Assembly (NCBI RefSeq): GCF_029168335.1
Contig: NZ_JARGYC010000024.1
Coordinates: 1 to 63,083, forward strand
Reading direction: 5' to 3'
Origin: Psychromarinibacter sediminicola
GTDB taxonomy: Bacteria > Pseudomonadota > Alphaproteobacteria > Rhodobacterales > Rhodobacteraceae
Length of the DNA stretch: 63,083 nt
The translations under genes were made by a program, and so were the position numbers. The notes beneath the pieces are model-generated. The model saw nothing but the letters and a program-made list of their open reading frames with translations, did no database searches and was not told the origin of the DNA. Positions within the stretch are counted from its first letter, which is position 1, and the number at the start of each line of letters is the position of its first letter. This document shows positions 53,113 through 63,057 of the stretch, piece after piece.

Positions 53113-54138
53113 TCACTCCGGCGGCATGTTCTCCGAAAGATACAGCTCTGCCGTCACCACCGGCGGAGTTCCCTTGGTCGCCGCAAGAACGGCGGCCTCG
53201 AACAGCGCGTCCGGATCCTGCGTGATCACCGCGTCCATCGTTCCGTCCGCCAGCATCGCGCGTGTGTCGCGGGTCAGCCCATGTCCGACGAAGGTGATGT
53301 CCTGTGCGCGCCCGCTCTCTCGCAGCGCCCGGCCGATCCCGTCGGACGACCCGCCGACGTTGTAGAGGCCGATGATGTCGGGATGCTTGTCGAGAAGCCG
53401 GCGGGTGTGCTGGTAGTTCTCGTCCCGGTCGTCGTGCCCCTCTCGGGTGGCGGACACCGAAAGGCCCGGGAACCGTTCCTCGACCAGCCCCAGAAAGCCG
53501 ACTTCGCGCTCCATGTGCGCGCGGTAGATCCGGCTGGCGGCGATGAGCGCGACGCGCCCCTCGCGTCCGCCGTTGAAACGCCCGAGGATCAGGGCGGCTG
53601 TGCGCCCGGCGGCGAAGTTGTCGATGCCGACATAGGCATGGCGGCGCGAGGTGGAGATGTCCGAGATGAAGGTGATCGCCTGCTTGCCGGAGGCGACGAT
53701 CTCGTCCGTGGCGGCGCGGACCTTCGGGTGGTCGATGGCCATGAAGATCACGCCATCGGCGCGTCGCGCGAAATGGCGGATCGAACGGGCGAGTTCGTCG
53801 GGGTCGAACCCGTCGATGAAATAGCTCTTCACCCGCGCATCGCGGCGGTTGCGCTCGACGAAGGCATGGGCGCGGTGGTTCACGAGGGCCAGATAGGGGT
53901 TCGTGCCGCGCGGCAACAGGAAGGCGAGGGTCAGCGGCTCGGACTCGCTGAGCCGTTCGACGTCGGAGGATGTCACGTAGCCCAGCGAGAAGGCGGCATC
54001 CAGAACGCGGCGCGAGGTGCTTTCGCGGACGGGCGTGCGGCGGTTCAGCACCCGGTCCACCGTGGCGGTGGAGACACCGGCAGCGCGGGCGATTTCGGGG
54101 ATCGTGGTCAAGCTGCGGCCGGCCCTCTCAGAAGACAT
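53113..54138 (-). CDS. LacI-family transcriptional regulator
   Basis: A 341-residue regulator. The N-terminal LacI HTH and hinge are clear: TTIPEIARAAGVSTATVDRV followed by LNRRTPVRESTSRRVLDAA. The remainder is a periplasmic-binding-protein-like ligand domain (LTLAFLLPRGTNPYLALVNH and RHAYVGIDNFAAGRTAALIL). These proteins usually repress sugar or acid-sugar catabolism. It is divergent from the TRAP/RLP/kinase operon and is its probable repressor. The ATG at 54138 is used; the preceding codon is TTG. No Shine-Dalgarno is visible; instead a 15-bp repeat covers the start region. Confidence 0.93.
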   Translation of the reverse strand: MSSERAGRSLTTIPEIARAAGVSTATVDRVLNRRTPVRESTSRRVLDAAFSLGYVTSSDVERLSESEPLTLAFLLPRGTNPYLALVNHRAHAFVERNRRDARVKSYFIDGFDPDELARSIRHFARRADGVIFMAIDHPKVRAATDEIVASGKQAITFISDISTSRRHAYVGIDNFAAGRTAALILGRFNGGREGRVALIAASRIYRAHMEREVGFLGLVEERFPGLSVSATREGHDDRDENYQHTRRLLDKHPDIIGLYNVGGSSDGIGRALRESGRAQDITFVGHGLTRDTRAMLADGTMDAVITQDPDALFEAAVLAATKGTPPVVTAELYLSENMPPE

Positions 54139-54244
54139 CAAAAACCATCATGATCGAACCCTGTATCGAAGCCGCGTTGCGAAATACTCTCGAAAGCATG
54201 GGTTTTTCTGGCGCCGCTGTAAAGCGCTCCATCAAAAACCATCA
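54136..54244. repeat. 15-bp direct repeat flanking the LacI/TRAP divergence
   Basis: CATCAAAAACCATCA occurs at 54136-54150, over the LacI start codon and leader, and again identically at 54230-54244, 17 nt before the TRAP binding-protein start. A reverse-oriented relative, CATGGGTTTTTCTGG, lies at 54197-54211. Two identical sites next to both start points are what an autoregulating LacI repressor with looping or dual-site binding would need. Confidence 0.6.
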
Positions 54245-54260: not shown

Positions 54261-55271
54261 ATGCTCGACTTCATCACCAAGGCGCCGCTGCGCCGGACCG
54301 TCTCTGCCGTCGTGGTCGCCGCCAGCATGGCAGGCGCCGCCTACGCACAGGACATCACCCTGCGCTACGGACATATGAACGCGCCGAATTCCATTGCCGG
54401 CATGCAGGCGGACTGGCTGGCCGAGGCCATCGCCGAGAGGACCGACGGGGCCATCGAGGTGCAGGTCTTCCCGTCGTCGCAGCTCGGCAAGCTGCAGGAA
54501 CTGGCCGAGGGGGTGTCCACCGGCACCATCGCGCTGTCGCACAATACGGCCGGGGCCATCGGCTCGCTGCACCCGCCCTTCGCCGCCTTCGACACGCCGT
54601 ATTTGTATCGCGACGTGGATCACCTGATGAAGGTGGTGGATACCGACTCGCCGGTGATGCAGCAGCTCAACGAAGAGCTGATCGAGGCGGCCGGCGTGCG
54701 CGTGCTCTACGCCTTCTACTTCGGGGCGCGGAACCTGACGGCCGACCGGGCCATCAAGACGCCGGCCGACCTCGAGGGGGTCAAGATCCGCTCGATCCCG
54801 TTCCCGATCTACACCGCCGCGGTCGAGGGGCTCGGCGCCGTGCCGGTGCCGATCGACTGGTCCGAGGTGCCGACCGCGCTCGCGACCGGCGTCGTCTCCG
54901 GCCAGGAGAACCCGGTGAACGTGGCGGTGGCGCACAAGCTCTACGAGGTGCAAAGCCACATGATGGAGACCCGGCACATCGTCGCGGCCGAGGTCGTCCT
55001 GATCAACGAGGACACCTGGCAGGGCCTGTCGGACGAGCACAAGGCGGCGCTGCAGGCGGCGGCCGAGGAAGTGCGCCAGAAGGCGACCGAATACGTGATC
55101 GCCTCGGAGACCGAGGACAAGGCCAAGCTGGAAGAGCTGGGCATGACGATCATCGGCCCCGAGGACGGGCTGGATGTCGAGGCCTTCCGCGCCTCGGTCG
55201 AAGAGCGCATCGACGCGGAGTTCGGCGACCAGTACGGCGACTTCTACGAGCAGGTCGAAGCCGTCGAGTGA
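54261..55271 (+). CDS. TRAP transporter substrate-binding protein, DctP family
   Basis: A 336-residue periplasmic protein; signal peptide ends near GAAYAQ-DITLR. ITLRYGHMNAPNSIAGMQAD, QVFPSSQLGKLQELAEGVST and the conserved Arg in GVKIRSIP (Arg177), which forms the carboxylate salt bridge in DctP proteins, are present, so the ligand is expected to be a carboxylate such as a sugar acid. GGGAGGAG stands 7 nt before the ATG. The downstream acid-sugar kinase and RuBisCO-like protein point to an apionate-, isoapionate- or other branched aldonate ligand (inference). Confidence 0.94.
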   Translation: MLDFITKAPLRRTVSAVVVAASMAGAAYAQDITLRYGHMNAPNSIAGMQADWLAEAIAERTDGAIEVQVFPSSQLGKLQELAEGVSTGTIALSHNTAGAIGSLHPPFAAFDTPYLYRDVDHLMKVVDTDSPVMQQLNEELIEAAGVRVLYAFYFGARNLTADRAIKTPADLEGVKIRSIPFPIYTAAVEGLGAVPVPIDWSEVPTALATGVVSGQENPVNVAVAHKLYEVQSHMMETRHIVAAEVVLINEDTWQGLSDEHKAALQAAAEEVRQKATEYVIASETEDKAKLEELGMTIIGPEDGLDVEAFRASVEERIDAEFGDQYGDFYEQVEAVE

Positions 55272-55302
55272 TCGACGGCCGCCGGGGGAGGAGAGCGAAG
55301 CG

Positions 55303-55806
55303 ATGGCCGAGACCGGTGTGATCGCCACCCTGCGTGGGGCACTCGGTGCCGTCGCCCGGGCCGGGCTCTGGATCTCTGTCCTGCTGCTGGTGGCGATCTC
55401 CGCGCTGGTGGCAGGGCAGGTCGTGGCCCGGAACGTCTTTTCCCTCGGTCTGCCCTGGGCGGACGAGCTGGCGCGGTGGTTCGGCATCGCGCTCGTCTAC
55501 CTGACCATTCCGCACCTTCTCGACCGCGGTTCCCACATCGCGGTCGAATTCCTGCCGGACCGACTCGCCGGCAAGGCGCGGGCGGCGGTTCTGGCGGTGT
55601 CGGACCTGTCCGTTGCGGCCTTCGCCGGGATCAGCCTGGTCGCATTCGCCGGCTTTCTGGACCGCGCGGCGCGGTTCAAGACGCCGGCGCTGGGGATCCC
55701 GAACATGATCTTCTACATCCCTGCGCTTCTGGGGATCGTCCTTTTGGGACTGGTCGCGATCCTGCGGCTGGCCGAACTCGTGCGCGGAGGCGAACGGCGC
55801 GCATGA
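55303..55806 (+). CDS. TRAP transporter small permease, DctQ family
   Basis: A 167-residue membrane protein with four helices. ARNVFSLGLPWADELARWFG with the following ALVYLTIPHLLDRGSHIAVE is the typical DctQ core. It overlaps the large subunit gene by 4 nt and follows the binding-protein gene by 31 nt, with GGGGGAGGAG upstream. Confidence 0.93.
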   Translation: MAETGVIATLRGALGAVARAGLWISVLLLVAISALVAGQVVARNVFSLGLPWADELARWFGIALVYLTIPHLLDRGSHIAVEFLPDRLAGKARAAVLAVSDLSVAAFAGISLVAFAGFLDRAARFKTPALGIPNMIFYIPALLGIVLLGLVAILRLAELVRGGERRA

Positions 55807-57080
55807 CCCTGACGCTTCTGCTTCTCTTCGGTGCCGGGCTGGTCCTGGGCGTGCCGGTCGCGGTCTGCCTCGGCCTGTCCTCGGCGATCACGATCCTGAT
55901 CCATGACCTGCCGCTGAACGTGCTGGCGCAGCGCAGCGTGAACGCGCTCGACTCGACGCCGCTCTTGGCGGTGCCCCTGTTCATCTTCGCCGCCACGCTG
56001 CTGAGCGCCACGGGCGTCACCAATCACCTGTTCGAGCTGATGCGGATGATCGTCGGCCGGCTGCGGGGCGGGGTGGCGCAGGTCAACGTCCTGGTCAGCC
56101 TGGTGTTCTCCGGCATGTCCGGCGCGGCGCTCGCCGATATCGGCGCGCTGGGCGGCATCCAGATCAAGATGATGTCCGAGCAGGGCTATTCCAAGCGCTT
56201 CGCCGCGGGCATCACCATCGCGGCGGCCACGATCGGTCCGATCTTTCCGCCCTCGATCCCGCTGATCATCTTCGCCACCGCGGCCGAGACCTCTGCCGTG
56301 CGCGCGCTTTTGGCCGGCGTGGTGCCGGCGCTCGTCGTGACCGTGGCGCTGATGATCCAGATCGCGGTGATGGCGCGGCTGCGCGATCTGCCGCGCGACA
56401 CGGTGAGGCCGTCGGCCGCGGCCTTCGCCCGCAAGTTCACGATTTCCCTGCCGGCGCTGCTGGCCCCTGTCCTGATGATCGCCGGTCTGCTGAGCGGGTA
56501 CTTCGGCCCGACCGAGGTGGCCGGGGTGATCGTGGCCTATTCCGTGCTGATCGGCATCGTCGTCTATCGCACGCTGACGCCGCGGCGCTTCTTCACCGCC
56601 GCTGTCGAAACGGTCGAGGCCACGGCCAACATCCTGTTCGTCGTGGCGACCGCGGCGCTCTTCGCCTGGGTGCTGACGATCGGTCGGGTGCCGGCGCTGG
56701 CGGGCGAGTGGCTTCTGGGCGTGTCCAGCGACCCGCTGGTCCTGCTGCTGATCCTGAACGTGGTTCTGCTGGTCGCCGGCATGTTCCTGGAATCCATCGC
56801 CGCGATCCTGATCATCGCGCCCATCGTCGCGCCGACGATGCTGCTGGCGGGCGTGCCGCCGGAACAGCTGGGCGTCGTCTTTGTCCTGAACCTGATGATC
56901 GGCCTGCTGACGCCGCCTATCGGCATGAGCCTCTACATGGTGTCGGTCATCACCAAGATGGACTTCAGCGAAGTGGTGCGCGGCGTGCTGCCCTTCTACA
57001 TCCCCCTTTTCGTGGCGCTGGCCGTGGTGACGCTCTTTCCCGGGCTCTCCACCTGGCTGCCCGAACTCATCATGAATTGA
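55803..57080 (+). CDS. TRAP transporter large permease, DctM family
   Basis: A 425-residue membrane protein with 12-13 helices. VPLFIFAATLLSATGVTNHL, VFSGMSGAALADIGALGGI, IGPIFPPSIPLIIFATAAET and LNLMIGLLTPPIGMSLYMVS are DctM hallmarks. It couples substrate uptake to a sodium gradient in characterised family members. It ends 7 nt before the VOC gene. Confidence 0.95.
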   Translation: MTLTLLLLFGAGLVLGVPVAVCLGLSSAITILIHDLPLNVLAQRSVNALDSTPLLAVPLFIFAATLLSATGVTNHLFELMRMIVGRLRGGVAQVNVLVSLVFSGMSGAALADIGALGGIQIKMMSEQGYSKRFAAGITIAAATIGPIFPPSIPLIIFATAAETSAVRALLAGVVPALVVTVALMIQIAVMARLRDLPRDTVRPSAAAFARKFTISLPALLAPVLMIAGLLSGYFGPTEVAGVIVAYSVLIGIVVYRTLTPRRFFTAAVETVEATANILFVVATAALFAWVLTIGRVPALAGEWLLGVSSDPLVLLLILNVVLLVAGMFLESIAAILIIAPIVAPTMLLAGVPPEQLGVVFVLNLMIGLLTPPIGMSLYMVSVITKMDFSEVVRGVLPFYIPLFVALAVVTLFPGLSTWLPELIMN

Positions 57081-57087
57081 GGTACCC

Positions 57088-57624
57088 ATGAGCAGACTTC
57101 TCGGCGAAATCCGCCAGCTTGGCTATGTCGTGCCGGATATCGAGGCGGCGATGGACCACTGGTCCCGCGTGATGGGGGTGGGCCCGTTCTTCTACAACCC
57201 GCGCGTGCCGATCGAGGGGTATCACTACGGCGGCGAGCCCTTCGAGGTGGAGAATTCCGTGGCGCTCGCGAATTCCGGGTTCATACAAATCGAACTGATC
57301 CAGACGCGGAACGACGCCCCCTCGATGTACCGCGATTTCATGCAGGCCGGGAACATGGGGCTGCAGCACGTGGCTTTCTGGACAAAGGCGTTCGACGACG
57401 ATCTCGCTCTCATGCGGAAGCAGGGGTTCAAGGTACAGATGGAAGGCTGCGTGGGCGAGAACGGGCGTTTCGTTTATTTCGACCGCGAGGCGCATCCGGG
57501 CACGGTGATCGAGCTGTCGGAGGTCGTCGGACCCAAGGGCCGCATGTTCGAGATGATCCGCGCCGCCAGCGAAGGCTGGGACGGATCCGATCCCGTCCGT
57601 CCCTTCCCGTCGCTCGAGGCCTGA
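57088..57624 (+). CDS. VOC-superfamily (glyoxalase/epimerase-like) protein
   Basis: A 178-residue protein with two beta-alpha-beta-beta-beta units typical of the vicinal-oxygen-chelate fold. RQLGYVVPDIEAAMDHWSRV at the N-terminus and GLQHVAFWTKAFDDDLALM in the second half each supply a likely metal ligand (His in HVAFW), with Glu in GTVIELSEV as a third. It resembles methylmalonyl-CoA epimerase and glyoxalase relatives, so it may epimerise or isomerise an alpha-oxy acid. It lies between the TRAP importer and the RLP gene (1-nt gap to the latter), suggesting a step just before or after the RLP. Not part of the apionate pathway as I know it. Confidence 0.84.
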   Translation: MSRLLGEIRQLGYVVPDIEAAMDHWSRVMGVGPFFYNPRVPIEGYHYGGEPFEVENSVALANSGFIQIELIQTRNDAPSMYRDFMQAGNMGLQHVAFWTKAFDDDLALMRKQGFKVQMEGCVGENGRFVYFDREAHPGTVIELSEVVGPKGRMFEMIRAASEGWDGSDPVRPFPSLEA

Positions 57625-57625
57625 G

Positions 57626-58882
57626 ATGATCGGCGCCCGCTATCTTCTGGAGACGCCGCTCGACCCCGAAAAGGTCGCGGCGATGATGGCCGGAGAGCAG
57701 AGCGCGGGCACCTTCGTCCGCGTTCCGGGAGAGACGGACGAACTCCGCGAGCGCCATGGCGCGCGGGTAAGATCGGTGCGGGTGGTGGAGGAGCGCGATG
57801 CGCCGACGCTGTCGAGCGCCTACCTTGAGCGCAAGGGCCAGGCCGGTCTCTGGCGTCGTGCGGAAGTGGAAATCGACTACCCCGAGGAGAATGTCGGCGC
57901 CAACCTGCCCACTCTTGCCGCGGTGGTCGCCGGCAACCTGTTCGACCTCGGCGAGATCACGGCGCTGAAACTCATGGACGTGACGGTCACGCCGGACTAC
58001 CGCGCGCGTTTCGCGCGTCCGGCCTGCGGGATCGCGGGCACGCGCAAGGCGCTCGGCGTGGACGAGCGCCCGCTGTTCGGCACGATCATCAAGCCGAATA
58101 TCGGCATGTCGCCGGATGAGATCGCGGCACTGGTGAAGACCCTCTGCGAGGCCGGAGTGGACTTCATCAAGGACGACGAGATCGTGGGCAACCCCGCCTG
58201 CGCGCCGGTGGCCGAGCGGGTTTCGGCGGTGATGGATGTGGTGCGGCGCCACCGCGACAAGACCGGCCGGAGCGTCATGATCGCGTTCAACGTCACCGAC
58301 GAGGTGGACGCGATGCGCCGACATGCCGATCACGTCGCGGCCGAGGGCGGCAGCTGTGTGATGGCCTCGCTGAACTGGTGCGGGCTCTCGGGTATCGAGA
58401 CGCTGCGCCGGCACACGCCGCTTGCGATTCACGGGCACCGCAACGGCTTCGGCGCTTTCGGCCGCCACCCCGCGCTCGGCATCGCCTTCCCGGCCTGGCA
58501 GGTCCTGTACCGGCTCGCCGGCGTCGATCACCTGCACGTGCATGGCATGGGCGGCAAGTTCGCGGACCCGACCGAAGAGGTGGCGGACGCCGCACGCCGC
58601 TGCCTGACGCCGCTGGGCGACACGGACGACCGGGTGATGCCGGTGTTCTCGTCGGGGCAATGGGCCGGCACGCTCGGGCTGACCTACGACCGGATCGGGC
58701 AGGCGCGCGACTTCATGTTCCTGGCCGGAGGCGGCATCCTCGCGCATCCCGACGGGCCGGGCGGCGGCGTCGAGAGCCTGCGCGCCGCGTGGGAGGCGGT
58801 GTCGGCCGGCGCGGATCTGTCCGAGCATGCCCGCCGGTCGAAGGCGCTCGCGATGGCGCTCGAAACCTTCGGCGGGCGCTGA
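57626..58882 (+). CDS. RuBisCO-like protein (form IV; OiaX-like candidate)
   Basis: A 418-residue RuBisCO large-subunit homologue. Active-site equivalents kept: Asn104 (GNLF), Lys156 (IIKPN), the carbamylated-Lys/metal block Lys182, Asp184, Glu185 (FIKDDE), His271-Arg272 (HGHRNG), His304, Lys311 (HVHGMGGK), Ser343 (SSGQ) and the phosphate loop GGGILAHPDG (368-377). Lys177 of true RuBisCO is Asn158, so CO2 fixation is not expected. An acid-sugar kinase gene follows at once, as in D-apionate clusters, where the RLP OiaX cleaves 3-oxo-isoapionate 4-phosphate (transcarboxylase/hydrolase). An MtnW-type enolase role is possible but no methionine-salvage genes are nearby. Confidence 0.88.
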   Translation: MIGARYLLETPLDPEKVAAMMAGEQSAGTFVRVPGETDELRERHGARVRSVRVVEERDAPTLSSAYLERKGQAGLWRRAEVEIDYPEENVGANLPTLAAVVAGNLFDLGEITALKLMDVTVTPDYRARFARPACGIAGTRKALGVDERPLFGTIIKPNIGMSPDEIAALVKTLCEAGVDFIKDDEIVGNPACAPVAERVSAVMDVVRRHRDKTGRSVMIAFNVTDEVDAMRRHADHVAAEGGSCVMASLNWCGLSGIETLRRHTPLAIHGHRNGFGAFGRHPALGIAFPAWQVLYRLAGVDHLHVHGMGGKFADPTEEVADAARRCLTPLGDTDDRVMPVFSSGQWAGTLGLTYDRIGQARDFMFLAGGGILAHPDGPGGGVESLRAAWEAVSAGADLSEHARRSKALAMALETFGGR

Positions 58883-58884
58883 CC

Positions 58885-60126
58885 GTGCCGCCCGCCTATG
58901 TCTTCGTCGCCGACGACTTTACCGGCGCGACCGACACGCTGGCGACGCTGGCGCGGGCCGGCCGGTCCGTGCGGCTGTTCCTCGACGTCCCGTCGCCGGA
59001 CGAGGTGCAGGGGCTCGACGCCTTCGGCATCGCGACCGGGGCGCGTGCGCTGGACAACGAGCGCCTCGACGCGCTGATGGAGCGGATCGGCAACCGCCTT
59101 GCGCCGCATCGGCCCGACATCCTGCACCTCAAGATCTGTTCCACCTTCGACAGTTCGCCCACGACCGGCAACTTCGCCCGCAGCATGGCGGCCTTGTCCC
59201 GGGCCACGGGCATCGCGCGGCAAGCCATTGTCGGGGGGCAGCCGAGCCTCGGGCGCTACTGCATCTTCGGTCATCTGTTCGCGCGGGCCGCCGACGGCGG
59301 GGTGCATCGGATCGACCGCCACCCGGTCATGCGGGTCCATCCCGTCACGCCGATGACGGAAAGCGATCTGGCGTTGCACTTCGCCGGGCTCGGCGGCGCC
59401 CGTCCGGCGCGTGTCGATCATTCGTCCCTGAACGCGGATGCGCCGTGGTCGGAGTCAGGCCCGGTGCTTTTCGACGCGCTGGAGGCGGACGACATCGAAA
59501 GGATCGGAAGGCATTTGCGCCGGGCGGCGCCGGTTCTTGCGGCCGGCGCGAGCAGCGTCGCGGAGGCCGTTATGGGGGCGGCGGCGCCACGCCCTGTCGC
59601 CAGACAGCGGCTGAGAGCGCCGGTCCTCGCCTTCGCCGGAAGCCGCTCCGCGGTCAGTGCGGAACAGGTGGCCAGGGCCGGCGCGTTCGCGCGCCTCCCC
59701 GTTCCGCCCCGGTCGCTTCTCGACCCCACGGAGCACCGGACAATCGGGGCCGAGGCGGCCGCAGCCCTGGCCAGCGGCCAGCACGTCCTTCTGTCTCTCG
59801 AAGACACCACAGGGGACGCCAACGCGCCGCACGAGTTGGCGCGCCTGTCCGCAGACCTCGTCTCCGACATCCTGGGCGGCGGCGACGCCGGGGCGCTTCT
59901 CGTTGCCGGCGGCGACACGTCCAGCGCCATCCTGCGGCGTCTGGCGCCTCATGCCATCGCCTACGAGGGCGACATCGACCCCGGTGTCTCCCTGTGCAGG
60001 GCCGATTTCGAGGACGCGCCGTCCTTGCCGATCGTGCTGAAGGGGGGGCAGGTGGGCAAGCTGTCGCTGTTCGACGACATCGTCGGGCAGGTCCTTTGCT
60101 TTGCGCCCGGGCGCAAGACACAGTAG
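58885..60126 (+). CDS. DUF1537 four-carbon acid sugar kinase family protein (OiaK-like candidate)
   Basis: A 413-residue cytoplasmic kinase. The N-terminal substrate domain starts YVFVADDFTGATDTLATLAR; the ADDFTGA motif is diagnostic. The C-terminal nucleotide domain contains LLVAGGDTSSAILRRL and the Gly-rich VLKGGQVGKLSLFDDI. Family members phosphorylate erythronate, threonate, denominate or 3-oxo-isoapionate. A GTG 2 nt after the RLP stop is the only sensible start. Its pairing with the RLP suggests it makes the phosphorylated substrate that the RLP cleaves. It is the last gene of the TRAP/VOC/RLP operon. Confidence 0.88.
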   Translation: MPPAYVFVADDFTGATDTLATLARAGRSVRLFLDVPSPDEVQGLDAFGIATGARALDNERLDALMERIGNRLAPHRPDILHLKICSTFDSSPTTGNFARSMAALSRATGIARQAIVGGQPSLGRYCIFGHLFARAADGGVHRIDRHPVMRVHPVTPMTESDLALHFAGLGGARPARVDHSSLNADAPWSESGPVLFDALEADDIERIGRHLRRAAPVLAAGASSVAEAVMGAAAPRPVARQRLRAPVLAFAGSRSAVSAEQVARAGAFARLPVPPRSLLDPTEHRTIGAEAAAALASGQHVLLSLEDTTGDANAPHELARLSADLVSDILGGGDAGALLVAGGDTSSAILRRLAPHAIAYEGDIDPGVSLCRADFEDAPSLPIVLKGGQVGKLSLFDDIVGQVLCFAPGRKTQ

Positions 60127-60436: not shown

Positions 60437-61297
60437 TTAGGGATTGATCTCGATCGACTCCAGGGCGAGCGCGCCGACATCGTACTTGTCCAGGATTTCC
60501 TGGTAGGTGCCGTTCTCGACGAGTTGATCCAGGGCGCCGTCAATCGCCTCGGCGAGGTCGGAATGCGCCTTGCCCGTTGCGATGGTCAGGTTGCCGGTTT
60601 TCCAGTTGTCGCCTTCCATGTTGACCAGCTTGGCCTGGCCGTCCAGCGCCACGATGATCGCCGTAAGCTCGACCGCCGTGTGAAGCCAGGCGTCGACGGC
60701 GCCCGATTGGAACGCGGCGAGCACGCCGGCATTGCCGGAGTATTGCTGGATGGTCAGTTTCTCCAGCCCGGCCTCTTCGCAGCGGTCCGCAGCACCGTTG
60801 GCCAGCTCGACGAACCAGCTTGCCTGAACCGCGCCGACGCGCTTTCCGCACAGCGTGGTGTCGTCGCTGGTAATGTCGGTGTTGTCCACAGGGACCAGAA
60901 CGGAAATGGCATCCTTGATGTACGGCATCATGTTCAGGATTTCCTTGCGCTCTTCGCGGAAGCTGATCATCCCCATGGACAGGTCGATCGCACCGCTTTG
61001 CAGGCCGGGAATGATCCCTGGCCACTGCATGTCGCGGAAATCGAAGGTGACGCCCAGGATCGGTTCCATGGCGTGCGCCAGTTCCACGGCGACACCCGTC
61101 AGTTCGTTATCCTCGAGATAGACGTGCGGCGGGATCGTGCGCGGCGCACCCACCTTGATGACTCCCGATTCCACGATTTGTTCGGGGAGCTTGGCAACCA
61201 GGTCCGCATCCGGTTCCGCCACGGCGGCGGTCTGCCATGTGCCGGCAATCAAAGCACCGATTGCAAGCGCCCCCATCTTGTTTATTGTGTTTAGCAT
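60437..61297 (-). CDS. Transporter substrate-binding protein, family 3 (amino-acid type), without permease genes here
   Basis: A 286-residue periplasmic protein; signal peptide ends near TAAVA-EPDAD. GVIKVGAPRTIPPHVYLEDN, LTGVAVELAHAMEPILGVTF, and WPGIIPGLQSGAIDLSMGMI are standard SBP_bac_3 features, and a cysteine pair (LCGKRVG and RCEEAGL) may form a disulfide. Ligands are polar amino acids, opines or small acids. The ATG at 61297 has GGGAG 7 nt upstream. No permease or ATPase is adjacent within the window; the gene stands alone between two hairpins. It shares direction with the FAA-hydrolase-family gene but is separated by 380 nt with a terminator, so it is probably transcribed alone. Confidence 0.88.
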   Translation of the reverse strand: MLNTINKMGALAIGALIAGTWQTAAVAEPDADLVAKLPEQIVESGVIKVGAPRTIPPHVYLEDNELTGVAVELAHAMEPILGVTFDFRDMQWPGIIPGLQSGAIDLSMGMISFREERKEILNMMPYIKDAISVLVPVDNTDITSDDTTLCGKRVGAVQASWFVELANGAADRCEEAGLEKLTIQQYSGNAGVLAAFQSGAVDAWLHTAVELTAIIVALDGQAKLVNMEGDNWKTGNLTIATGKAHSDLAEAIDGALDQLVENGTYQEILDKYDVGALALESIEINP

Positions 61298-61333
61298 CGT
61301 AATCTCCCTTGCTTGGCTGGGCTTTTGTCCCAA

Positions 61334-61382
61334 GCAGATGTTATCTGCGCCGCCTTCGTGACCCATCACATCGCCTTGTGAC
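61334..61382 (-). promoter_or_regulatory. Operator-like dyads upstream of the family-3 binding protein
   Basis: GCAGAT-GTT-ATCTGC (61334-61348) is a perfect 6-3-6 dyad 37 nt before the start codon. Nearby GTGAC is repeated directly at 61358 and 61378 (20-bp spacing, one side of the helix) around TCACA. Either could be a regulator site. The rest of the 61298-61590 gap shows no gene. Confidence 0.45.
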
Positions 61383-61590
61383 ATTCGGGAAACGGCGCGG
61401 CGTCGCCTGGCTGGCCTGGCCCGTCTGGCGGGGCGCTCGCCGGGCCCGATGCCATCCACGAGCTGCCGGTGCGGCATGCCCCGGAGGCGATCCCATCGTC
61501 ATGCGAAACGCCAGGATTCGGGACGCCGGTACGCCGTCTCGAAATCGTCGATTGTACGGGAGGTCATGCCCGGCTCCAGAGTCCTGTCCT

Positions 61591-61632
61591 CTGTGCCGCG
61601 GCGCCTTCCGAGAAGGGGGCGCCACGGCACAG
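61591..61632 (-). terminator. Hairpin after the FAA-hydrolase-family gene
   Basis: CTGTGCCG-c-GGCGCC / GGCGCC-a-CGGCACAG, 14 paired bases with one C-A mismatch and a 12-nt loop, 46 nt after the minus-strand stop. It separates this gene from the binding-protein gene. Confidence 0.65.
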
Positions 61633-61677
61633 CGGAATGAGAGGTCGGGAGGCTCCGGGGTCGGTAGCGGGCGTGCG

Positions 61678-62559
61678 TCAGCTGTCCTCGACGACGGTGT
61701 TCTTCAGAACGCCGATACCGCTGAGGTCCACTTCCACGACATCGCCCGGCTTGAGGAAGATCGGCGGGTTGCGCTTGAACCCGACGCCGGCCGGGGTGCC
61801 CATTGCAATCACGTCGCCCGCTTCGAGGTCGATGAACTCCGACAGGTGATTGATGATGAAGGGCACGTCGAAATACATCGACGCGGTGTTGTCCTTCTGC
61901 ATCTGCTCGCCGTTCACGCGCGTGACGATTTCGACATTGTGCGGATCCTTGAGTTCATCCGCCGTCACGATCACCGGTCCGAGAGGGCCCGTGGTCCGGA
62001 AGTTCTTGCCCGCGATGTACTGGGTCGTGCGGAACTGGTAGTCGCGCACGGTGATATCGTTGAACGCGGTGTAGCCGAAGACATGATCCATCGCGTCTTC
62101 GACGGCGATCTGGCCCTTGTGCGGCTTGCCGATCACGACGGCCAGCTCGCCTTCCCAATCCAGCTGCTCGGACACCTTCGGGTATAGGACGTTCTGCCCG
62201 GAGCCGATCAGTGTGGCGTTGTAGCGGTTGAACATGATCGGGTTGGGGCTCATCTCGAACCCGGCTTCCTTCGCATGCTCGACATAGTTCCGCCCGATGC
62301 AGAAGAACTTGGGCGGGCGCGGCACGCTGGGAAGCAGTTCGACATCCGCAGGGGTGCGGTGCGCCGCGGGATCGGCATTGGCAGCCATGGCCTTGATGGT
62401 CTCCATGAGTGCCGGCCCACGTTCGATCAGCTCGACAACGGACGCCGGTGCGCCGCTGGTTCCGCTGGTCTGATATAGCGCAGGGATGTCGATGATGCCG
62501 GACTCTTGCCAGACACCAAAGCTTGGAATTCCCTGAGAAATATAGCTGGCCAGTTTCAT
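61678..62559 (-). CDS. Fumarylacetoacetate hydrolase-family protein
   Basis: A 293-residue FAH-superfamily enzyme. The metal site is visible: Glu136 and Glu138 in DWEGELAVVIGK and Asp168 in AFNDITVRDYQ. KFFCIGRNYVEHAKEAGFEM and IAMGTPAGVGF are conserved family blocks. Members hydrolyse or decarboxylate 2,4-diketo acids or dehydrate sugar acids (for example 2-keto-3-deoxy acid or hydroxypentadienoate metabolism). AAGGAG lies 7 nt before the ATG. It is divergent from a CMD-family gene; together they could act on an aromatic ring-cleavage or diketo acid product, but the rest of the pathway is outside the window. Confidence 0.9.
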   Translation of the reverse strand: MKLASYISQGIPSFGVWQESGIIDIPALYQTSGTSGAPASVVELIERGPALMETIKAMAANADPAAHRTPADVELLPSVPRPPKFFCIGRNYVEHAKEAGFEMSPNPIMFNRYNATLIGSGQNVLYPKVSEQLDWEGELAVVIGKPHKGQIAVEDAMDHVFGYTAFNDITVRDYQFRTTQYIAGKNFRTTGPLGPVIVTADELKDPHNVEIVTRVNGEQMQKDNTASMYFDVPFIINHLSEFIDLEAGDVIAMGTPAGVGFKRNPPIFLKPGDVVEVDLSGIGVLKNTVVEDS

Positions 62560-62661
62560 CTTTTCTCCTTATGTTCGATATACGGTGAGACATGTCCGAT
62601 TTTAGGGATTCATCACCGCCGACTCAAGCCAAATGGCACATGCAGCAAGAAGGAGTTCTTC
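62560..62661. promoter_or_regulatory. Divergent control region, FAH-family / CMD-family genes
   Basis: A 102-nt gap with both ribosome sites (AAGGAG on each strand). CGGTGA (62583-62588) and TCACCG (62613-62618) form an inverted pair 24 nt apart; an AT-rich patch TTCGATATAC lies next to the FAH leader. A shared regulator is plausible but no regulator gene is visible on either side. Confidence 0.4.
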
Positions 62662-63057
62662 ATGACCGACACATCCTCGGCAGGTGAGCGTTTCGACGAC
62701 GGGCTCGCGACTCGCAAGGCGGTCCTCGGCGACGAATATGTCGAGAAATCGCTCGCCAACGCAGGCGAGTTCGGCTGGCCTCTGCAGAAACTGACGACCG
62801 AGTACTGCTGGAACGAGATCTGGAACCGGCCGGGCCTGGACCGCCGCGCGCGCTCTCTGCTGAACCTCGGCATGATCGCGGCTTTGAACCGGCCACACGA
62901 GTTCAGAATCCACGTGAACGGAGCCCTCAACAACGGTCTGTCCAAGGAGGAGATCCGAGAAGCCATTCTTCAGATTGCCTTCTACTGCGGCGGGCCGGCC
63001 GCGCTGGACGCCAACCGGATCTTGACGGAAGTGCTCAAAGAGCGAGGTGAGCTTTGA
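62662..63057 (+). CDS. Carboxymuconolactone decarboxylase-family protein (PcaC-like)
   Basis: A 131-residue protein matching gamma-carboxymuconolactone decarboxylases in length and layout: RFDDGLATRKAVLGDEYVEK at the N-terminus, LDRRARSLLNLGMIAALNRP, EFRIHVNGALNNGLSKEEIR and IAFYCGGPAALDANRI. Unlike AhpD it has no CxxC pair. It may decarboxylate a ring-cleavage lactone or act on a similar acid in a pathway with the FAH-family enzyme. AAGGAG stands 7 nt before the ATG. Its operon probably continues past the right edge. Confidence 0.86.
   Translation: MTDTSSAGERFDDGLATRKAVLGDEYVEKSLANAGEFGWPLQKLTTEYCWNEIWNRPGLDRRARSLLNLGMIAALNRPHEFRIHVNGALNNGLSKEEIREAILQIAFYCGGPAALDANRILTEVLKERGEL

Follow-up and report, generated by a model that had tools for sequence, protein, structure and literature searches.

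The window analysed here, a stretch of 63,083 nucleotides of Psychromarinibacter sediminicola (Rhodobacteraceae; contig NZ_JARGYC010000024.1), contains a discrete unit consisting of a LacI-family regulator gene and, divergent from it, the genes of a tripartite ATP-independent periplasmic (TRAP) importer (dctPQM), a VOC protein, a RuBisCO-like protein (RLP) and a DUF1537 kinase. We tentatively read this unit as a LacI-controlled, self-contained cassette that imports and breaks down an oxidised, probably 2-C-branched sugar acid. All seven encoded proteins pass their Pfam cut-offs. The enzyme genes are tightly packed, with gaps of 7 nt between dctM and the VOC gene, 1 nt between the VOC and RLP genes and 2 nt between the RLP and kinase genes; the GTG start codon of the kinase, at 58885, lies two bases past the RLP stop codon. 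An earlier reading of the same DNA from its letters alone, hereafter the original prediction, had proposed an operon under a divergent LacI gene, and the places of the genes and the sizes of the gaps agree with it.

Conservation and distribution

The genome of the window, G000, is approximately 5 Mb in size and 99.99% complete. A scan of named genomes yielded 295 relatives, of which the best 80 by RLP similarity were analysed. The VOC, RLP and kinase genes occur together in all 80 of these loci, and a lacI homologue is present in 78, the remaining two being truncated by contig ends. Sequence identities across the 80 loci are 66–89% for the VOC protein, 60–79% for the RLP and 39–59% for the kinase. 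A search with the RLP in the own family of G000 (295 genomes) gave matches in 94, including six further genomes with an RLP at 63–65% identity, with which the named set overlaps, and a separate set at 39–54%. All six contain lacI, dctPQM, VOC, RLP and kinase genes in the same order; a VOC gene is found in none of ten loci drawn from the 39–52% RLP set. Both kinds of RLP are present within one genome in G137 and G263. In each of 96 loci, a set that counts at least five places twice, the three enzyme genes share a strand, and their median gaps are 4 and 1 nt. Their constant company in the 80 named loci, common strand and short gaps indicate that the grouping is not due to chance. The survey of synteny proposed in the original prediction has therefore upheld the association of the VOC gene with the RLP and kinase genes, although the VOC gene, described there as inserted, is a constant member of the cassette that is also kept in variants, and not a stray insertion.

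Four of the 80 loci (L102, L114, L117 and L123; Bosea and a Hyphomicrobiales metagenome-assembled genome) have a different TRAP system, the detected parts of which are 28–30% identical. Among plasmid records, 18 have an RLP match of 60–80% and 281 a weaker one. Of the records examined, those of Azospirillum brasilense Sp7, Roseomonas and Neorhizobium carry annotations for the same cassette, in which the TRAP permease is encoded by a single gene instead of two, and an unannotated Variovorax plasmid record also holds it. A search of the 80 loci for an extra conserved neighbour gene gave none beyond Thalassospira synteny, common ABC ATPases and DctM-like genes. In the trees the window RLP and VOC protein group first with those of Litchfieldella (76% and 88% identical, respectively), the RLP also with other Halomonadaceae, and are joined by Paracoccus-type members of their own family only thereafter, which makes horizontal transfer of the cassette likely.

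A conserved operator and the size of the regulon

Inspection by eye of the gaps between lacI and dctP revealed a common direct repeat, CMTCAAAAMMCMTCA, which is present in the window in two copies (Table 1). A search of these gaps for a common palindromic LacI operator gave none, and a first 14-base operator pattern was rejected as out of register and uninformative. The operator was tallied for the window and 79 named loci in which dctP had been scored, using one shuffle per region as control. All 62 exact sites in these 80 regions are on the plus strand, no further than 260 bp ahead of dctP. The best upstream site has no mismatch in 53 and at most one in 77 of the 80 regions, against a best of three in the shuffled regions; when the window region was shuffled by itself, 11 of 100 shuffles gave two or more sites with no more than two mismatches. 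The pattern was derived from the same upstream regions that were later scored, so the stronger, independent test is a count over the whole G000 genome. There, allowing one mismatch, the operator occurs twice, both times at the cassette. As far as the motif tells, the LacI regulon of G000 would comprise the cassette alone. Across 31 cassette genomes the corresponding counts range from 1 to 17. These genomes contain 26 exact sites, of which at least one lies off the cassette (G697:C1:909594); the exact sites of G687 and G688 were not traced to the cassette, as loci L073 and L079 lack an exact site.

The restricted regulon bears on the question of a dehydrogenase. Because the operator is found at the cassette alone, no dehydrogenase is seen in the G000 regulon. 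As originally predicted, an ApnO-type dehydrogenase is missing: PF16896, which we take to be the domain borne by ApnO, occurs neither in the operon nor elsewhere in G000. It is absent from 23 and present in 8 of the 31 cassette genomes. A relative of the short-chain dehydrogenase/reductase (SDR) found in some cassette operons is likewise not detected in G000 at E≤1e-45; relatives of 41–57% identity occur outside such operons in 11 other cassette genomes. Import of an already oxidised acid, one of the options raised in the original prediction, is the best fit to a regulon limited to the cassette.

Table 1. Coordinates of the cassette genes and operator copies in the window.
Feature	Position	Strand	Remarks
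lacI, LacI-family regulator	53113..54141	-	divergent from the operon; Pfam LacI and PF13407 (Peripla_BP_4 sensor domain)
operator copy 1, CATCAAAAACCATCA	54136..54150	+	direct repeat of CATCA; overlaps the lacI start
operator copy 2	54230..54244	+	same 15 bases as copy 1; 16 bp ahead of dctP
dctP, TRAP solute-binding protein	54261..55271	+	PF03480
dctQ, TRAP small permease	55303..55806	+	PF04290
dctM, TRAP large permease	55803..57080	+	PF06808; TIGR00786 above cut-off
VOC protein, predicted metal-dependent isomerase/epimerase	57088..57624	+	PF13669
RuBisCO-like protein (form IV), N158 clade	57626..58882	+	PF00016/PF02788
DUF1537 (four-carbon acid sugar) kinase	58885..60126	+	PF07005 and PF17042; GTG start

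The RuBisCO-like protein

The OiaX model NF042437 is the top NCBIfam model for the window RLP, which nevertheless scores 416.6 bits against a cut-off of 700; the scores with the MtnW model TIGR03332 (157.8 bits, cut-off 513.6) and the form III RuBisCO model (227.1 bits, cut-off 497.45) are lower still. The RLP of locus L046, a true OiaX by score (754.8 bits), is 39% identical to the window RLP, and the RLPs of D-apiose-type loci are 43–52% identical, placing the window RLP, by identity, nearer to the latter than to OiaX. In the cases read, the D-apiose-type loci encode a PGDH_C domain, presumably that of ApnO, a Gfo/Idh protein and a protein of ∼600 residues lacking a Pfam match that is taken for ApnL. 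In Paraburkholderia sprentiae (L234) an RLP of this type lies ∼7.8 kb from a kinase named OiaK by RefSeq; because the two share a D-apiose-type locus, the group is treated here as OiaT-like by context.

A tree was calculated from 74 RLPs and RuBisCOs; it holds neither an MtnW row nor an OiaT reference sequence, its RuBisCO outgroup does not fall on one side of a branch and L220, a distant row, sits at the end of a very long one. The RLPs of 27 of the 28 VOC cassettes form one clade with PDB entry 3nwr (support 98/100), the sole outsider, L161, being placed among the D-apiose-type RLPs. The OiaX branch consists of L046, L224 and L225 (support 100/94), of which L046 was scored against the model. 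The D-apiose-locus RLPs form further groups that, together with OiaX, are the sister side to the cassette clade (98/91). The window RLP falls neither in the OiaX branch nor with the RLPs of D-apiose-type loci. On model scores and tree position it is classed as neither MtnW, tested by model score only, nor OiaX, and the firm clustering with an assigned clade that would have contradicted the original prediction is not observed.

The motifs announced in the original prediction are all present. The RLP contains the sequences GTIIKPNIG, FIKDDE (K182, D184 and E185), HGHR, HVHGMGGK and SSGQ/GGG and, in what we take to be RuBisCO numbering, retains the positions of K175 (K156 in the RLP), K201, D203, E204, H294, R295 and the loop-6 lysine, while N158 occupies the position of K177. 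This asparagine is present in 27 of 27 cassette-clade RLPs and in 3nwr; other RLP rows have serine or cysteine, carboxylating RuBisCO rows have lysine and the very distant row L220 has glutamine. Similarly, HVHG is found in 27 of 27 cassette-clade rows and 3nwr, in place of HVNG, HVSG (L182) or, in the OiaX branch, QING/QVNG. A carboxylating RuBisCO of forms I–III is ruled out by N158 at the K177 position, the family score and the tree. A further RuBisCO-type gene, for a large subunit of the carboxylating type (TTKPK motif), is located on another contig of the genome (G000:C204:32851-33993, L217).

The DUF1537 kinase and the VOC protein

The SBD_N and NBD_C domains of the kinase score above their cut-offs (139 and 75.2 bits, respectively), but the full-length protein reaches 167 bits with the OiaK model NF042436 (cut-off 700) and 106 of 350 bits with the 3-oxo-tetronate kinase model NF043035. 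Of the OiaX/OiaK pairing put forward in the original prediction, the resemblance of the RLP/DUF1537 pair to the oxo-isoapionate type stands; its identity with that pair does not, given scores of 416.6 and 167 bits against 700.

The VOC protein is predicted to be a metal-dependent isomerase or epimerase. Its residues Q10, E69, H94 and E142, chosen by eye from alignments as metal-ligand positions, are invariant in 52 of 52 aligned sequences, a Gln/Glu/His/Glu set like that of human glyoxalase I. The structure model (pLDDT 94.6) has 3gm5 and methylmalonyl-CoA epimerases as its best fold matches; these are 17–28% identical to the VOC protein, which has Gln for their first metal His and scores 19.8 bits with the methylmalonyl-CoA epimerase model TIGR03081 (cut-off 114.95). 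The company of VOC homologs depends on their similarity. In 248 genomes of the family of G504, the genome that carries L161, nine of ten VOC genes at 68–73% identity lie beside an RLP and a kinase gene, as do seven of seven at 69–74% in a sample of 398 genomes, L161 being included in both counts. No RLP was found near more distant VOC genes (0 of 11 at 49–55%, 0 of 3 at 36–39% and 0 of 8 at 54–63%), and these non-cassette neighbourhoods gave no hint of function. Of 25 other genomes with a match, ten had their gene context viewed.

Natural variants of the cassette

The most informative variant is L161, in which lacI, the operator and a VOC protein nested in the cassette VOC clade are combined with a TRAP system 78–80% identical to that of the Azospirillum cassette. 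Its RLP is of the D-apiose-locus type, 69% identical to that of L042, with S158/N306, and its kinase scores 550.9 bits with the OiaK model, under the cut-off of 700; four D-apiose-locus kinases score 475–513. The swap suggests that 3-oxo-isoapionate, or an analogue of it, is the point where the cassette pathway joins D-apiose catabolism, and it is mainly for this reason that both RLP/kinase pairs are thought to perform the same or a closely related job.

In L180, L277 and L278 an SDR gene is added to the operon, the SDRs of L277 and L278 being 77–78% identical to that of Neorhizobium; such additions would be expected if the other cassettes import the oxidised form. Three loci (L281:8375-16538, L282:2674-9665 and L283:6536-14505) combine a sister VOC gene (59–62%) with a TRAP system resembling that of PDB entry 4oan and an OiaK-like kinase (448–450 bits with the OiaK model in the two scored), and lack an RLP; PdxA is found in L281 and L283 and a DhnA-type aldolase in L281. 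These three represent a further type of sugar-acid locus with no assigned function. Exact operator copies are present in variants L158, L160, L161, L162, L272–L276, L278 and L280, and are absent from L157, L178, L180, L277 and L279.

Further rearrangements were observed. In L160 (7030-14712) the TRAP system is replaced by what reads, by inspection without family search, as a polar-amino-acid-type ABC importer, with the operator kept. L280 (6644-11135) is a partial cassette in which lacI, operator, dctP and VOC gene precede an MFS-like gene; its 18 kb show neither an RLP nor a kinase gene.

Clues from the importer

The solved structures nearest to the window DctP are 4pc9, 4nq8 and 4p9k, of which we take the last two to be the TRAP proteins bound to pantoate or erythronate. 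Azospirillum-type cassettes have another DctP, 57–64% identical to 4oan, in which the modelled ligand is presumably (S)-2-acetolactate. 2-Acetolactate is a 2-hydroxy-2-methyl-3-oxo acid, that is, a deoxy analogue of 3-oxo-isoapionate. The DctP proteins of VOC-free loci with SDR, RLP and kinase genes (L181, L228 and L229) also belong to the 4oan-like group and are 50–55% identical to that of L178. TRAP binding proteins with bound pantoate or erythronate are described in PMC11668362, and the review PMC5812351 mentions the assignment of 2-acetolactate to some TRAP protein in a binding-protein screen.

Proposed pathway and alternatives

The sequences themselves show the gene content and its conservation, the operator and the regulon size that it indicates, the RLP clade, the catalytic residues and the swap. 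The substrate, the order of the steps, the VOC reaction, the carbamylation and the products are what we infer for the following route. The acid brought in by the TRAP system would be an oxidised member of the 3-oxo-isoapionate class, probably a 2-C-branched sugar acid. The first enzyme to act in the cell would be the VOC protein, with its methylmalonyl-CoA-epimerase fold; it would generate the 3-oxo (β-keto) acid form, of which the kinase would phosphorylate the terminal hydroxymethyl group. At carbamylated K182 the RLP would remove CO2 from this phosphate, giving a metal-bound enediolate, and would then either protonate the enediolate or, in an OiaT-like manner, recapture CO2 and cleave the product to 3-phosphoglycerate and glycolate. 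The latter outcome would suit a cassette that encodes no additional enzyme, since neither 3-phosphoglycerate nor glycolate would call for another dedicated gene. The likeness of 3-oxo-isoapionate 4-phosphate to the six-carbon intermediate that RuBisCO forms during carboxylation would account for its handling by RLPs. Both decarboxylation and transcarboxylation/hydrolysis of this compound are assigned to RLPs of Agrobacterium and Xanthobacter in PMC6302742, and PMC8914248 gives 3-phosphoglycerate and glycolate as products of the final step in the hamamelose pathway.

An unlikely alternative is a linear substrate: a 2-oxo-aldonate would be imported, converted by the VOC protein from the 2-oxo to the 3-oxo form, and phosphorylated and decarboxylated as a linear 3-oxo-aldonate. 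In tetronate breakdown such a 2-oxo to 3-oxo tautomerisation is performed by OtnI, and the epimerase-like fold and glyoxalase-like metal set of the VOC protein suit enediolate chemistry. The match of the kinase to the 3-oxo-tetronate kinase model, though far below cut-off, and the pantoate- or erythronate-bound proteins near the window DctP point the same way. However, a branched acid is indicated by the OiaT/OiaK-type pair that L161 carries in exchange, and the characterised RLPs of this group, according to PMC6302742 and PMC8914248, use branched or pentulose-type compounds. Of similarly low probability is an ordinary D-apionate-type pathway in which the dehydrogenase is encoded elsewhere without co-regulation and the VOC protein is accessory. 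It would account for the SDR inside the operon in Neorhizobium and two genomes of the G504 family, for the SDR relatives elsewhere in 11 cassette genomes and for PF16896 in 8 of 31, but it is difficult to reconcile with the absence of both from G000, with the confinement of the operator to the cassette there, and with the VOC protein, the best-conserved enzyme of the trio, being kept when the RLP and kinase are swapped or lost.

It is rather improbable that the RLP is an oxygenase that uses O2 to split a phosphorylated intermediate into 3-phosphoglycerate and glycolate. PMC8914248 and PMC10176493 cite such an RLP in the D-hamamelose pathway, and the catalytic positions listed above are retained, but neither a sugar dehydrogenase nor a lactonase is encoded by the seven cassette genes. 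That the RLP is MtnW, the enolase of methionine salvage, or some other sulfur RLP is scarcely credible: the superfamily is the same and weak model matches exist, but the MtnW score of 157.8 bits against 513.6 is far below that with the OiaX model, the residues disagree and the neighbours are a kinase, a TRAP system and a VOC gene. A bolder and rather doubtful proposal is that the VOC protein is a new kind of redox-free ketol-acid isomerase, which shifts either the hydroxymethyl or the carboxyl substituent of a branched oxo acid between C2 and C3 and so feeds an imported branched 2-oxo acid to the kinase and RLP without a dehydrogenase, the N158 RLPs having a distinct activity adapted to it. 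If so, the VOC protein would correspond to the isomerase half of ApnO, detached and recreated on a glyoxalase fold.

Several observations weigh against a self-contained cassette for an oxidised branched acid. The RLP/kinase swap is known from one lineage, L161. The window kinase is far from OiaK, and N158/H306 in the window RLP, against serine or cysteine and mostly asparagine elsewhere, implies that the substrate may differ. The window DctP is 25–31% identical to the 4oan-like cassette DctPs, so that the ligand hints from 4oan carry over only indirectly. The loci with a VOC gene and no RLP (L281–L283) do not obviously fit a VOC protein that makes a 3-oxo acid. The small regulon applies to G000 and not to all cassette genomes, as 11–17 operator matches with up to one mismatch occur in G637, G685, G687 and G696. 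Finally, SDR relatives are encoded elsewhere in 11 cassette genomes, and an unrelated dehydrogenase could conceivably serve in G000.

Relation to known systems

The cassette shares an RLP and a DUF1537 kinase with the OiaT/OiaK branch of D-apiose catabolism, reportedly described by Carter et al. in 2018, a study cited in PMC6302742, and L161 carries such a pair. It differs by the lack of PF16896 in the genome and of Gfo/Idh in the operon, by the VOC protein, by its own LacI and TRAP system and by an RLP in the separate N158/H306 clade. The same pair of families makes up the OiaX/OiaK branch, in which OiaX is the 3-oxo-isoapionate-4-phosphate decarboxylase; the window RLP lies outside the OiaX branch, at 39% identity to L046, and both NCBIfam cut-offs are missed. 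With the tetronate pathways OtnK/OtnC/OtnI and DtnK/PdxA2 the cassette has in common a TRAP importer and a DUF1537 kinase followed by a decarboxylating enzyme, but an RLP and a VOC protein replace the aldolase or PdxA and OtnI. Zhang et al. are said to have solved these pathways in 2016 and to have listed DUF1537/RuBisCO neighbourhoods already, only those with PdxA and aldolases being solved. The DUF1537/RuBisCO/TRAP neighbourhood itself, reportedly mentioned in that work, is not new. No assigned function for the cassette was found in searches of open-licence PMC papers. What is new, within the literature searched, is that the VOC gene is constant, that the RLPs form a clade of their own, that the regulon of G000 is limited to one cassette and that L161 shows the swap.

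RLPs have few assigned functions, and the clade described here is present in numerous Pseudomonadota, among them marine, halophilic and plant-associated ones. The cassette is minimal, with one importer and three enzymes, and its RLP clade includes a crystal structure, 3nwr, whose molecule name, a rubisco-like protein, conveys no function. Its chemistry is directly testable with one binding protein, one VOC protein, one kinase and one RLP. Solving it would add a reaction to the RuBisCO superfamily, a function to a VOC subfamily and a sugar acid imported by many environmental bacteria.

Flanking genes and further loci

The right flank of the cassette (60437-63057) encodes a lone SBP_bac_3 protein, a FAH-family hydrolase and a carboxymuconolactone decarboxylase-like (CMD) protein. 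These genes are not conserved with the cassette, one stray homologue (CMD, in L110) being found in 80 relatives. The top NCBIfam match of the FAH-family protein is 2,4-didehydro-3-deoxy-L-rhamnonate hydrolase, far under cut-off.

RLP and kinase genes also occur together in other settings. Locus L301 (2489-9912) combines a 4oan-like TRAP system, two SDRs, an OiaK-type kinase and an OiaT-type RLP; its genome, G1122, carries the VOC cassette (L274) as well. A haloarchaeal plasmid (L182:1663-12631) encodes a TRAP system, an SDR, a 281-residue protein lacking a Pfam match, an RLP, a DUF1537 kinase and PGDH_C. In Croceibacterium (L230:7172-11525) and Rufibacter (L231:8992-13683) RLP–kinase pairs lie inside plant-polysaccharide loci, next to genes annotated as arabinofuranosidase, GH28 and pectinesterase, and rhamnogalacturonan sugars are possible substrates there.

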